A stretch of DNA of 64,000 nucleotides, taken from Methylococcaceae bacterium (lineage in GTDB: Bacteria; Pseudomonadota; Gammaproteobacteria; Methylococcales; Methylomonadaceae). Location: NCBI GenBank assembly GCA_030693065.1, contig JAUYBL010000030.1:1-64000 (forward strand), in the 5' to 3' direction. Shown one piece after another: positions 1 through 56,644 of this stretch. The translations under genes and the position numbers were made by a program. The notes under the pieces were generated by a model. That model was not told where the DNA came from. It saw only the letters and a list, made by a program, of their open reading frames with translations, and did no database searches. Within the stretch, counting starts at the first letter, position 1; each line of letters begins with the position of its first letter.

Positions 1-160
1 CGGGAGAAGGTTGGGATGAGGGGAATCTAAGTGATTGATTTTAATCTCCTCACCCCAACCCTCTCCAGCAGGAGAGGGAGTAAAATGGCTTTACAACTCA
101 TTGATTCTAAATTGTAAAAAAGTTGTGTAGATACTTATGCATCTGGAGAGGGATTTTTGC
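1..160 (+). repeat. Dispersed composite repeat, copy 1 (without the 48-bp module)
   Basis: Non-coding repeat before urtB. Bases 35-158 match the reverse complement of 56385-56512 over about 125 bp, with shared blocks such as TTGATTTTAATCTCCTCACC and GTAGATACTTATGC. Bases 1-19 match the reverse complement of the stretch just beyond the module copy at 56528-56574. The inner hairpin CCCTCTCCAGCAGGAGAGGG is self-complementary. The element probably continues past the left edge of the window. Confidence 0.8.
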
Positions 161-6751: not shown

Positions 6752-8451
6752 GCAAAATCAGTCGTCAAGCTTATGCCGACATGTTCGGCCCCACTACCGG
6801 CGACCGGGTGCGGCTGGCAGATAGTGAATTATTTTTAGAAGTGGAAGCCGATTACACCGTCTACGGCGACGAAGTGAAATTCGGCGGCGGCAAGGTAATC
6901 CGCGACGGCATGGGCCAAAGCCAGCTTGATTCATCCGTCGCAGTGGATTTGGTTATCACTAACGCGCTGATCGTCGATTACTGGGGCGTCGTCAAAGCCG
7001 ATGTTGGCGTCAAACACGGTCGTATTGCTGCAATCGGTAAGGCCGGTAATCCTGATATTCAACCGGGTGTAAACATTGTCATCGGTCCCGGTACCGAAGT
7101 GATTGCAGGGGAAGGTCAAATTCTCACTGCGGGTGGGATCGATGCCCATATTCATTTTATTTGTCCGCAACAAATCGAAGAAGCGCTGTGCTCCGGGGTA
7201 ACCACCATGATCGGCGGCGGCACTGGACCGGCAACCGGTACCAACGCGACCACTTGTACGCCGGGGCCTTGGTATGTTCACCAAATGTTAAAAGCGCTGG
7301 ATGGCTTTCCAATGAATTTTGGCTTGTTGGGGAAAGGTAATGCCAGTTTACCGGGCGCGTTGGAAGAACAAATCCACGCCGGGGCGATGGGCTTAAAACT
7401 GCATGAAGATTGGGGCACCACACCTGCAGCGATCGATTGCTGCTTAAGTGTGGCAGATCGTTACGATGTGCAGGTCGCTATCCACACCGATACTTTGAAT
7501 GAATCCGGTTTCGTTGAAGACACCTTTGCCGCCTTCAAAGGCCGCACCATTCATACCTATCACACCGAAGGCGCAGGCGGCGGTCATGCGCCGGACATCA
7601 TTAAAGCTTGCGGGCTGAGCAATGTATTGCCGTCGTCTACTAACCCGACCCGTCCGTATACCGTTAATACCGTCGACGAACATCTGGACATGTTGATGGT
7701 CTGTCATCACCTTGATCCCAGCATTCCGGAAGACGTGGCTTTCGCTGAATCGCGTATTCGCCGTGAAACCATCGCCGCCGAGGATATTCTTCATGATTTA
7801 GGCGCGTTTTCGATGATTTCCTCAGATTCGCAAGCCATGGGCCGAGTCGGTGAAGTGATTATCCGCACCTGGCAAACCGCACATAAAATGAAAGTGCAGC
7901 GCGGCAGTCTGGCTGATGATCCCAGTCGTCATGACAACTTCCGCATTAAACGTTACATCGCCAAGTACACTATTAATCCAGCCATCAGCCACGGCATTTC
8001 TCATGAAGTCGGCTCCATCGAAGTCGGCAAACTGGCTGATTTGGTTTTGTGGCAACCGGCGTTTTTTGGTGTCAAACCCAGTCTGATTTTAAAAGGCGGC
8101 ATGATCGCCGCCGCGCCCATGGGGGATGCCAATGCCTCAATCCCCACGCCGCAGCCGGTGCATTACCGGCCGATGTTTGGTGGATTTGGTATGGCGGCGT
8201 CCAGCACCTCGATGTTTTTCTTACCTCAAGTGGCAGCCGATGCCGTAGTTATCGCTAAGTTGGGCTTGGGAAAACAGGTTGGTATTGTTAAAAATACTCG
8301 CAATATCGGCAAAAAGGATTTGAAGTTAAATGACTACCAGCCGAATATCGAGGTCGATCCGCAAACGTATCAAGTCAGGGCAGATGGGCAGTTATTAACG
8401 TGTGAACCGGCGGTGGTATTGCCTTTTGCTCAGCGGTATTTTTTGTTTTGA
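6748..8451 (+). CDS. ureC: Urease catalytic subunit alpha UreC
   Basis: Catalytic subunit of nickel urease (urea + water to ammonia and carbamate), 567 aa, full length. Active-site elements are visible. HIHFICPQQ holds the first metal histidines. [12 protein letters not shown] contains the lysine that is carbamylated to bridge the two nickels. [10 protein letters not shown] and [16 protein letters not shown] give further ligands. [20 protein letters not shown] is the mobile flap with its cysteine and general-acid histidine. [12 protein letters not shown] supplies the last aspartate. No key residue is missing. It ends the ureDABC block; ureEFG follow only after a 1.4 kb repeat-bearing insertion. 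Confidence 0.97.
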
Positions 8452-8613: not shown

Positions 8614-8640
8614 ATGAAGCGATTAGTGTATTGGAAACCT

Positions 8641-8903
8641 TTATTTTTAATGTGTCGCTATCGCGACGGATTATTTAGATGTCGGTTCTCGGACCGACAG
8701 CCGAGATACTTTCTTTTGCTTCGCCAAAAGAAAGTATCCAAAGAAAAGGCGACCCGGATTCCGCCTTTATCCTGCGCTTCTCACTTTTGACGAGGGTTTT
8801 CAGAAGGGGCTTCCCAGCCCCTCTGAAAACGAGCGGCATCCCTGCCGCTCCCCTAACGGGCTGATCCCGCCAAAAGCTCCGATGCTCGGGGCGGAATAAC
8901 GGG
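8641..8903 (+). repeat. Long inverted repeat, left arm
   Basis: About 263 bp that reappear in reverse orientation at 9558-9866. Shared blocks include GTCGCTATCGCGAC at the outer end, AAAGAAAGTA, GGCGACCCGGATTCCGCC, TGACGAGGGTTTTCAGAAG and GATGCTCGGGGCG at the inner end. This copy lacks the 48-bp module present in the right arm. The two arms enclose one small lipoprotein gene. Confidence 0.85.
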
Positions 8904-8964
8904 AATAATCCCGTCACTTGACGAAAGACTGATATTGAATTTTGCAAGACAGATTTATGAATAC

Positions 8965-9017
8965 TGTAGGATGCTGCCGACGAAGGAGGAGCATCACCAA
9001 GTTCAGCACATCCTACG
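8965..9017. repeat. GTAGGATG-type short repeat
   Basis: GTAGGATG at 8966-8973 and CATCCTAC at 9009-9016 form inverted ends around about 35 nt that include a GATGCT/AGCATC inner pair. The same terminal words form the palindrome at 17750-17786, so it is a dispersed family in this genome. Confidence 0.6.
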
Positions 9018-9068
9018 GACTGTGGCAGTGAAAACATCATTCACAACGCACAATGTGTTGGAATCCAG

Positions 9069-9404
9069 TTATTTACAGTCATAGTAGTCAGCAAGCGATG
9101 TAGTTTGTTCACCGCCAAAAGCAACGTTGTTAGCAATTGATAAGGTTGAAACTTTGCGTGAAGAGGTAATAACCACAGTATTAGCATCATATTTAGTGGC
9201 AGTTTTCTTATGCCAATCATAACAATCATTGGCGACGAACAATCCTTGTGGACAAGACATTTGGGCTTTATAGGTACATTTTTTTGTAGAAGGAATACCG
9301 TTTTCTTCTATGCGTACCATTTCCCAACCTGGATATTTTAACGATGCGCATCCGTATAGAGTTAATGAAGAGATAATAGTGATTAATATGGTGTGTGGTT
9401 TCAT
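9069..9404 (-). CDS. Small putative lipoprotein enclosed by long inverted repeats
   Basis: A 111-aa protein with a lipoprotein signal: hydrophobic residues 5-16 then the lipobox LYGC, with C19 as the predicted lipidation site. The mature part has five cysteines in all (counting C19) and no motif I recognise; its C-terminus is DYYDCK. It is the only gene between the two arms of a long inverted repeat inserted between ureC and ureE, and it runs against the operon. The function is unknown. It may be a passenger of the repeat structure rather than a urease gene. Confidence 0.65.
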   Translation of the reverse strand: MKPHTILITIISSLTLYGCASLKYPGWEMVRIEENGIPSTKKCTYKAQMSCPQGLFVANDCYDWHKKTATKYDANTVVITSSRKVSTLSIANNVAFGGEQTTSLADYYDCK

Positions 9405-9557
9405 AGGTGTTTGTTCTTTTTAGGATTGAATGAGCCTGGTTGAGCAATGCTTTTTCTGCTCATCCTTATAGCTTGATTCTGTTCTTTTTAAAAGCCAAAA
9501 TCCCTAATCACAACGTGAGGGTATAAGATCTACCGCCGAATTTAGGATGGTTTTAGT

Positions 9558-9866
9558 CCCGTTATTTCGCCCCGAGCATCGGAGCTTTTTGCGAGATCAG
9601 CCCGTTAGGGGAGCGGCATGGATGCCGCTCGTTTTCGGTGGGGCTGGGAAGCCCCTTCTGAAAACCCTCGTCAAAAGTGAGAAGCGCAGGATTTAGGCGG
9701 AATCCGGGTCGCCTTTTCTTTGGGTACTTTCTTTTCGACTGCATGGATGCAGGAGGTAGAGCAACGCATGGAGCAGTTGCCGAGGCGAAGCAAAAGAAAG
9801 TACCTCGCCTTCGGGTGCGAGAACCCGATTTAAATAACCCGTCGCGATAGCGACACAAAAATAAAA
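9558..9866 (-). repeat. Long inverted repeat, right arm (carries the 48-bp module)
   Basis: Reverse-orientation partner of 8641-8903, about 309 bp. It runs from CCCGTTATTTCGCCCCGAGC at the inner end to GTCGCGATAGCGACAC at the outer end. Relative to the left arm it has one clean extra block, 9736-9783, between CTTTCTTTT and GGCGAAGC. With its partner it could form a stem of more than 200 bp. Confidence 0.85.
9736..9783 (+). mobile_element. 48-bp module, copy A (candidate miniature mobile unit)
   Basis: Runs from CGACTGCATGG to GCAGTTGCCGA. It is absent at the matching site of the sister repeat arm, where TTTT joins GGCG directly. A 47-bp near-identical copy with the same ends lies at 56528-56574 on the other strand, and a diverged copy at 56601-56644. 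It is too short to encode anything, so mobility would have to be in trans. It may instead be a recombining repeat block. Confidence 0.55.
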
Positions 9867-9877
9867 CAGCTAAGCAA

Positions 9878-10309
9878 ATGCTAAAACTCACCGAAACCAC
9901 CAACACCCAAGAACCCCCAGACGATACCTTGACCCTCCCTTACAACGAGCGCCAAAAATCAAGACAACCGGCGGTCACCCAAGGCGGAAGACACGTCGGC
10001 GTATTCCTGCCACGGGGCCAAACGCTACGTCACGGTGTGATACTGACTAACAGCCAAGGCTTTAAAGTGCGAATCAACGCCGCGCCGGAAGAACTGTCGG
10101 TTGTTAAATGCGCAGAACCATTACTGTTTGCCAGAGCTTGCTATCACCTCGGTAATCGACATATTGCCCTGCAAATTTTGCCTGATGAGCTGCGTTATCT
10201 GGCTGATCATGTGCTTGATCAGATGCTGATCGGTTTGGGTTTGAGTGTCGAACATCACACGCTACCGTTCGAACCGGAAGCCGGTGCTTATCATGGTCAT
10301 GGACACTGA
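9878..10309 (+). CDS. ureE: Urease nickel metallochaperone UreE
   Basis: Nickel chaperone that delivers Ni2+ to the UreDFG-apourease complex, 143 aa. The N-terminal half contains [11 protein letters not shown] and [21 protein letters not shown], matching the UreE peptide-binding domain. The C-terminal half has [12 protein letters not shown] and [15 protein letters not shown] with the metal-binding histidines. The tail is short but histidine-rich (YHGHGH). The start is ATG 9878, with no strong ribosome site because the inverted repeat ends just upstream. Its stop overlaps ureF. Confidence 0.92.
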
Positions 10310-10973
10310 TCTTTCGCTGCTCAGGCTGCTGCAACTGGTCAGTCCCGGCTTGCCGATTGGTATGTACAGCTATTCGCAGGGTATGGAAAGTGCTGTAAAC
10401 GACGGCTGGATAGTTACTGTCGATGATGCAGAAAACTGGCTGAACGGCCTGCTTTCAGAGGGTTTGGCCCGCGTCGATGCGCCAATTCTGGCAAGGCTTT
10501 ATGATGCCTGGAGCGACAACGATGCGGAGGCCGTTAAACATTGGAGTCAACACTTAATCGCCTGTAGGGAAACCGGCGAGTTGCGCAGTGAAGATCGCCA
10601 AACCGGCCAAGCTTTGGCTCGTTTGCTGGACAAGCTGGAAATATCCGAAGCGCAAGCCTGGCTGCGGCGACCGGATGCGACGCTGGCAACGTTGTTCAGC
10701 TTGGCTGCAGTGCGTTGGCAAATCAGCAAAACCGATGCGATTGCCGGTTATTTGTGGGGCTGGCTGGAAAATCAAGTGTTATGTGCAGTGAAACTGGTGC
10801 CGTTGGGGCAGGTGGCGGGTCAGCAATTGCTTAAAAAGTTGGCCGGAAAATTACCGGTTCTGGTGCAACAGGCGCTGGCGCTCAGCGATGATGAAATAGG
10901 CGGTAGCGTCTTTGGGCTGGCATTAGCCAGCAGCCGCCATGAAATGCAGTATTCCCGATTATTCCGTTCCTAA
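10293..10973 (+). CDS. ureF: Urease accessory protein UreF
   Basis: All-helical urease accessory protein that bridges UreD and UreG and gates nickel transfer, 226 aa. It begins near [24 protein letters not shown], the family signature (key residues SPxLPIGxYSYSQG). The C-terminal part has [11 protein letters not shown]-like residues ([14 protein letters not shown]). The start is placed at ATG 10293 (or 10299), overlapping the ureE end by 17 nt. An upstream start would give a non-homologous leader. Confidence 0.92.
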
Positions 10974-56527: not shown

Positions 56528-56574
56528 TCGGCAACCGCTCCTGCGTTGCTCTACCTCCTGCATCCTTGCAGTCG
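56528..56574 (-). mobile_element. 47-bp module, copy B
   Basis: Minus-strand sequence runs from CGACTGCAAGG to CGGTTGCCGA. It differs from copy A (9736-9783) at only a few positions, including one missing T. In copy 1 of the surrounding repeat (window start) the module is absent: there GGGATGA (near base 13) joins directly to GGGGAATC. Confidence 0.55.
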
Positions 56575-56600: not shown

Positions 56601-56644
56601 CCTACATGGATGTAGGTGTAGGGCAATGCAGGAGCAATTGCCGA
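56601..56644 (+). mobile_element. Diverged module, copy C, inverted to copy B
   Basis: A 44-bp stretch reading ATGGATGTAGG ... GGAGCAATTGCCGA. It aligns to copy A in the plus orientation with several substitutions. With copy B it forms an imperfect palindrome around 56528-56644. Confidence 0.5.

Follow-up and report, generated by a model that had tools for sequence, protein, structure and literature searches.

The DNA analysed here, referred to as the window, is the whole 64-kb stretch (64,000 nucleotides) at the start of a contig from a Methylococcaceae genome. At positions 8640–9865 there is a long inverted repeat, flanked by a urease-like gene (7207–8451) on one side and by what we take to be ureE and ureF (9878–10973) on the other, and the repeat encloses a small frame which is presumably lipoprotein-like; these gene names near the repeat were all read from the first residues of the frames. 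At the Rfam gathering threshold the matches in the window are limited to the 5′ ureB small RNA (6898–7183, minus strand, 108 bits) and none falls on the element described below. At locus L056 of the source genome, copies of the same inverted-repeat arm flank a RAYT gene on either side, and this layout resembles the "TIRtrons" described in PMC3733652.

The right arm of the inverted repeat contains a block of 48 bp, module A, and a composite repeat at 56.5 kb contains a block of 47 bp, module B (Table 1). Both modules have identical ends, namely CGACTGCA and TTGCCGA. For each of them an empty partner is present within the window: the left arm of the inverted repeat has TTTT directly abutting GGCG, and the first copy of the composite repeat, at the very beginning of the window, has GGGATGA (ending at position 19) followed by GGGG. 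When the arms are aligned, they match gap-free on both sides of module A, and the composite repeat does likewise when compared with the window start. These two filled and empty pairs had been noticed in the original prediction, and our alignments confirm them as well as a third, diverged copy facing module B (profile match, E 1.3e-8), which could pair with module B as one large hairpin (z −8.1). In agreement with the prediction a terminal inverted repeat is absent; both ends of the module carry CGA in direct orientation. The core of the module matches the window twice, versus 0.00 matches expected from 100 shuffles.

Table 1. Positions of the modules, their parts and their empty partners in the window
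Feature	Position	Strand	Basis
Module A (48 bp; long inverted repeat, right arm, filled)	9736–9783	+	
Hairpin 1 of module A: CTGCA, loop TGGA, TGCAG	9739–9752	+	fold and paired changes
GTAG tag of module A, 1 base 5′ of hairpin 2	9756–9759	+	
Hairpin 2 of module A: GCAACGC, loop, GC-A-GTTGC with bulged A	9761–9780	+	fold and paired changes
Empty counterpart of module A in the left arm (about 8640–8908) of the inverted repeat	8725–8726	−	
Module B (47 bp; composite repeat, filled)	56528–56574	−	
Empty counterpart of module B, composite repeat copy 1, GGGATGA joined to GGGG	19–20	+	
Third module, diverged, hairpin 1 changed to CTACA/TGTAG	56602–56644	+	profile match

Copies of the module and their spread

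The central 21 bases of the module, with up to three mismatches allowed, were searched for in the source genome and in genomes of the same genus, family and order (151 genomes including the source genome). The source genome has 42 core matches and none with the reversed-pattern control. The core was matched in 63 of the 151 genomes, with a maximum of 142 places in one genome, at least five of the 63 being look-alikes with a single coding match devoid of the module ends (G093, G108, G126, G129, G150). A class-wide draw was searched with a 23-base core and up to two mismatches, and 48 of 369 genomes, from 41 of 272 genera, had the core; these are counts of core matches, of which at least one is a look-alike (G503, coding, without the module ends), the check for such single-match look-alikes having covered a part of the single-match genomes. 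In named records, the exact 48-bp pattern found at least 118 stretches; among the 80 listed, carriers of the module include Methylobacter, Methylomonas lenta, Methylovulum, Sedimenticola, Endozoicomonas, Thiohalomonas, Dokdonella, and tubeworm symbionts. As these stretches were chosen by the exact pattern, their inner conservation and their length are uninformative, and the tests of the module ends were therefore confined to copies picked by the core.

Large plasmids of Pseudoalteromonas account for five of the seven matching plasmid records, and in three of these five (L215, L216, L217) the copy is located between converging genes. The phage collection searched had no match to the module, and the literature searched, which consisted of open-licence papers, did not contain the strings of the module or of its peptide in print. 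In one genome (G029, C1:953178–953822) four core matches with an exact spacing of 208 bases mark a tandem repeat containing the module.

Ends, target and folding

Picking by the core only yielded 92 distinct copies, which were grouped by their flanks into 38 site families. The left end is present in 73 of the copies, the right end in 77, and both ends (CGACTGCA and TTGCCGA) in 65. Thus, ragged edges, which the original prediction held to speak against a mobile unit, were looked for and the edges turned out to be fixed in 65 of the 92. The other 27 copies comprise nine longer variants that keep the right end, three with another inner right part, three with another right end (CAAAGCCGA), six look-alikes, and six in which one end is lost or changed. 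In a second version, seen at L261, L271, L067, and in the pglX gene of L212/L213, the left half of the module is the same and the right end is CAAAGCCGA instead of GTTGCCGA.

The flanks of the 38 site families have base preferences at three positions next to the module: A in 31, T in six, and G in one at position −1 (1.2 bits), G in 27 at position +1 (0.7 bits), and a purine in 33 at position +2 (0.5 bits). As the remaining flank positions printed carry less than 0.3 bits and are near random, the module has a weak target, W/GR (A or T before the junction, G and a purine after it). The same pattern of ends and target is seen in the larger set of 155 copies from all sources (63 site families), which contains the named copies chosen by the exact pattern.

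Searching both flanks of each copy against the loci compared, we found 106 flank pairs that meet without the module. Their gap is exactly 0 in 86 cases and otherwise 2 (10 pairs), 11 (5), −1 (3), 4 (1), and 1 (1); these pairs all go back to 22 query copies, belong to at least six host repeat families, and are not independent. Comparison of filled and empty sites, in repeats as well as in genes, shows target bases that are neither duplicated nor lost. Host repeats such as TACTTTCTTTT joined to GGCGAAGC had prompted the idea that insertion into a hairpin loop might be the rule. This was rejected: with at least five enclosing pairs as criterion, the joined flanks fold around the junction in a fraction of 0.508 of 61 site families versus 0.455 of 1220 control sites.

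The module strand folds into two hairpins (z −3.1 to −4.2), with GTAG at module bases 21–24 and hairpin 2 at bases 26–45. In an alignment of 50 distinct modules, pairing is possible in 97.3% of the cells, and it is lost when one side is slid. Changes on both sides of a pair occur in 13 cells versus a shuffle mean of 1.4, and none of 500 shuffles reached this value, a score that can be inflated by relatedness of the modules. Readable exchanges are CTGCA/TGCAG to CTCCA/TGGAG and to CAGCA/TGCTG in hairpin 1 and GCAAC/GTTGC to GCAAT/ATTGC in hairpin 2. An additional GC-rich hairpin may be present on hairpin 1, and other versions of the right half exist.

Modules are also found within and next to each other. 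At seven loci of the source genome a module lies within a longer module, after GGAGGTA or GTAGGTA. Since the right half of the outer module (GGGCACC) follows in two of these loci and the host repeat in the other five, the seven may share one origin. In other genomes head-to-tail copies are 47–48 bp apart, once with three in a row. Among the loci scanned (212 core matches), neighbours within 250 bp form eight same-strand pairs versus two inverted pairs.

Insertions inside genes

For the genic copies, open frames running through the module were listed and the likeliest ones were checked with Pfam, NCBIfam, and two solved structures. An in-frame module is found in hrpA (at two sites), valS, hypF, uvrC, pglX, and the genes of a squalene-hopene cyclase, an RND transporter, a histidine kinase, and a RAYT. 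At both HrpA sites the module is either covered by the family match or directly enclosed by it, and the same applies to valyl-tRNA synthetase, the RND transporter, HypF, squalene-hopene cyclase, UvrC, the hybrid histidine kinase, and the REP-associated tyrosine transposase; the identity of PglX is taken from the record names. Less sure are CobN, AEP-TOTE, and IS66, in which the family match starts just after the module, as well as the frames at L132 (no family match) and L120 (a weak one). Of the 42 copies in the source genome, two are confirmed to be genic, those in hrpA and in the RAYT gene.

At the first hrpA site, the genes of two relatives (L078 and L076) have exactly 48 extra bases, which are absent from the source genome (L007) and from L189, and the flanks in L078 and the source genome are 85–88% identical. 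At the second site the module is present in the source-genome hrpA and absent from L189, the one empty homologue compared, which is 73% identical and in which the aligner places the gap a few bases off. In pglX of a BREX system, the Moellerella gene has an insert of exactly 48 bases between GCAGA and CAA that is absent from three homologous genes. The same insert occurs in Salmonella and E. coli records (in E. coli in 2 of 5426 genomes); the filled genes of these two also differ from empty ones just upstream, so that Moellerella is the clean case. The valyl-tRNA synthetase gene harbors two modules of 48 and 66 bp, the hybrid histidine kinase gene two modules head-to-tail, and in squalene-hopene cyclase the module corresponds to a 16-residue gap versus the structure 1gsz. 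In the RAYT gene the module follows directly after the HLH motif (VVLPEHLH, insert, IWTLPSGD versus LPDHLHTVWTLP in an uninterrupted relative). This module-bearing RAYT is present in the source genome (C27, L062:1435–2019) and in L204, and in L085 and L086/L298 the gene is degenerate or incomplete and shares the right junction.

Inside genes the 48-bp module adds 16 amino acids and leaves the reading frame unbroken. Two forward frames are used: one yields DDCMDAGGRATQGAVAE, for example in HrpA and PglX, and the other yields STAGMQEVEQRMEQLPS in the RAYT. The copies in UvrC and the histidine kinase are on the opposite strand, all three frames of which appear to be open as well.

From these sequence comparisons we consider it almost certain that the module moves as a unit, as originally proposed. 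The same ends are found in unrelated contexts (38 core-selected and 63 all-source site families), copies with the same edges are present in the source genome and its relatives together with empty sites, and filled and empty pairs occur in repeats and in genes. Gene conversion between repeat copies, which the prediction had offered as an alternative, cannot explain insertions into single genes, and its concern that the module might always be part of longer repeats is answered by the copies in genes, which argue against a mere sub-block. Many copies do occupy a single fixed position within a host repeat, one site family having 18 of them, and therefore part of the copy number probably stems from amplification of the host repeat with the module inside. 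As the whole explanation, a mere sub-block of longer repeats that owes its movement to gene conversion or to host-repeat amplification is very improbable, being refuted by the gene insertions with their empty homologues and at odds with the 63 site families.

Known systems and the candidate mover

We place the module best among the small palindromic mobile repeats, with a REP-like right half and the build of a double-hairpin element. The claim that no named class fits stands only in part: the right half resembles a GTAG-tagged REP, and REPs and Rickettsia palindromic elements are described as behaving in genes much as the module does (PMC3733652). The GTAG REPs and the module have in common an unpaired GTAG tag just before a bulged hairpin and a dispersed distribution in many copies, most of which, so far as this was tested, lie outside genes. 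Like the module, GTAG REPs are found inside palindromes and in frame in uvr genes, RNA helicases, and tRNA synthetases, according to PMC3733652. Nevertheless, the module should not be called a REP, as a single palindrome, inverted pairing, a cognate RAYT, and the cleavage dinucleotides were all tested and none of them was found. A REP is a single palindrome of 20–40 bp with the tag at one end, whereas the module has two unlike hairpins, a central tag, and ends outside both hairpins. REPINs are mostly inverted pairs, and such pairs are rare for the module (see above). In RAYT-REP systems the cognate RAYT is flanked by the element and cuts occur at CT or CA, whereas the module frames none of the genes at 66 Y1/RAYT loci and its junctions in 63 site families do not follow CT or CA.

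Several other systems share part of these properties. The Rickettsia palindromic elements, which belong to another taxon and are likened to the module by description, are also small palindromic DNAs found in frame in unrelated genes. Some of them are classed as CGTC repeats in PMC3733652, and in this respect they differ from the module, which by inspection is not a CGTC repeat. The double-hairpin elements and GC clusters of fungal mitochondria are, like the module, a few dozen bases long with two hairpins, sporadic, and nested or merged, and among them GC42 is palindromic and a 48-nt GC cluster has been reported within a coding gene (PMC4478555). The GC clusters listed there, which are mitochondrial, are flanked by AG or ACT direct repeats, and the module is without flanking repeats. 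Terminal inverted repeats and target duplication, both features of MITEs, are absent from the module. Elements of the IS200/IS605 group have subterminal hairpins, no terminal inverted repeat, and no target duplication. The module is similar to them in having a hairpin near each end and in both absences (PMC8266576). IS200/IS605 elements differ by their fixed target tetranucleotide, whereas the module is far shorter, has a target constrained on its 5′ side only at the last base, and lacks a replication-strand bias. The SDR repeats of Nostoc, cyanobacterial elements of 21–27 nt, are like the module very short, structured, and nested in one another and in other repeats.

We suggest that the module is a non-autonomous mobile element of 47–48 bp, made up of two hairpins and a GTAG tag between fixed ends, which inserts as a unit at a loose target with the target bases neither duplicated nor lost. 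We infer that a HUH single-strand enzyme of the RAYT/IS200 kind would move it in trans by reading the half with GTAG and hairpin, and that copies in genes may survive because 48 bp are 16 codons and two forward and three reverse frames are free of stops. Comparison of the copies shows the features on which this proposal builds, namely fixed ends, insertion as a unit without target duplication, conserved hairpins, copies nested or placed head-to-tail, a distribution throughout the Gammaproteobacteria, and in-frame insertion in genes. To the explanation as a whole, including mover and frame-based survival, we assign a probability of roughly 0.4.

A RAYT-like mover acting in trans is a tentative proposal and our best single guess. 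It is suggested by the GTAG one base before the bulged hairpin and by the gene and palindrome sites of GTAG repeats: GTAG directly before a bulged hairpin is a recognition feature of RAYTs (PMC8266576), and GTAG repeats have been described within palindromes and within the same classes of genes (PMC3733652). RAYT genes were matched in 135 of the 151 genomes, 110 of them over the cut-off, so that a suitable enzyme would be available; as RAYTs occur in module-free genomes too, their presence is not diagnostic. The matching transposase that the original prediction had envisaged was not found. Among 66 Y1/RAYT loci (two scanned sets with one gene in common), a module lies within ∼1.5 kb in five and in none does it frame the gene; one further case of a module near a RAYT, in genome G116, was found from the coordinates. 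Cleavage by RAYTs is described to occur at the dinucleotides CT or CA, and this rule is not followed, with CT or CA at the left junction in 17 of 63 site families and GA at the module end in 61 of 63. With the replication strand judged from GC skew in 20-kb windows, a strand bias is absent (46 versus 43 events in three genomes, 12:20, 10:7, and 24:16). A search for an autonomous parent or lone ends around a gene gave nothing convincing among the loci compared.

Rather unlikely, in our estimate, is a separate bacterial class of double-hairpin mobile elements whose mechanism is neither RAYT nor IS200/IS605 and possibly goes through RNA, and which has spread throughout the Gammaproteobacteria in defence, transposase, and housekeeping genes. 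For another recombinase or transposase unrelated to RAYT and acting in trans, for example, of the IS110 type or another type without target duplication, the W/GR target and the absent RAYT signatures leave room; no candidate gene emerged from a search that covered the Y1/RAYT families, and we regard such an enzyme as unlikely. It is also doubtful that the module moves through a folded RNA with two hairpins from which DNA is made. The two conserved hairpins, the tiny size, and the lack of a transposase would suit this route, whereas Rfam finds no family on the module and the copies in genes lie on both strands. For the cyanobacterial SDR repeats a copy-back of RNA was reportedly once suggested. 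Modules merge and nest as is described for GC clusters, and for those of yeast mitochondria the authors proposed RNA copy-back (PMC4478555).

Whatever moves it, a stretch of 48 bp here acts as a mobile unit complete in itself, for which exact ends, empty sites, and a target can be given. This is a countable case, so that the minimal needs of a mobile element become directly testable. The 16-residue peptide added to unrelated proteins, among them a helicase and a transposase as well as a tRNA synthetase and a phage-defence enzyme, represents a natural experiment on insertion tolerance, and for annotation it serves as a warning, since DDCMDAGGRATQGAVAE in a protein is the footprint of mobile DNA. 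If the reading as a double-hairpin class of its own were true, the module would be among the smallest mobile DNAs that invade genes.
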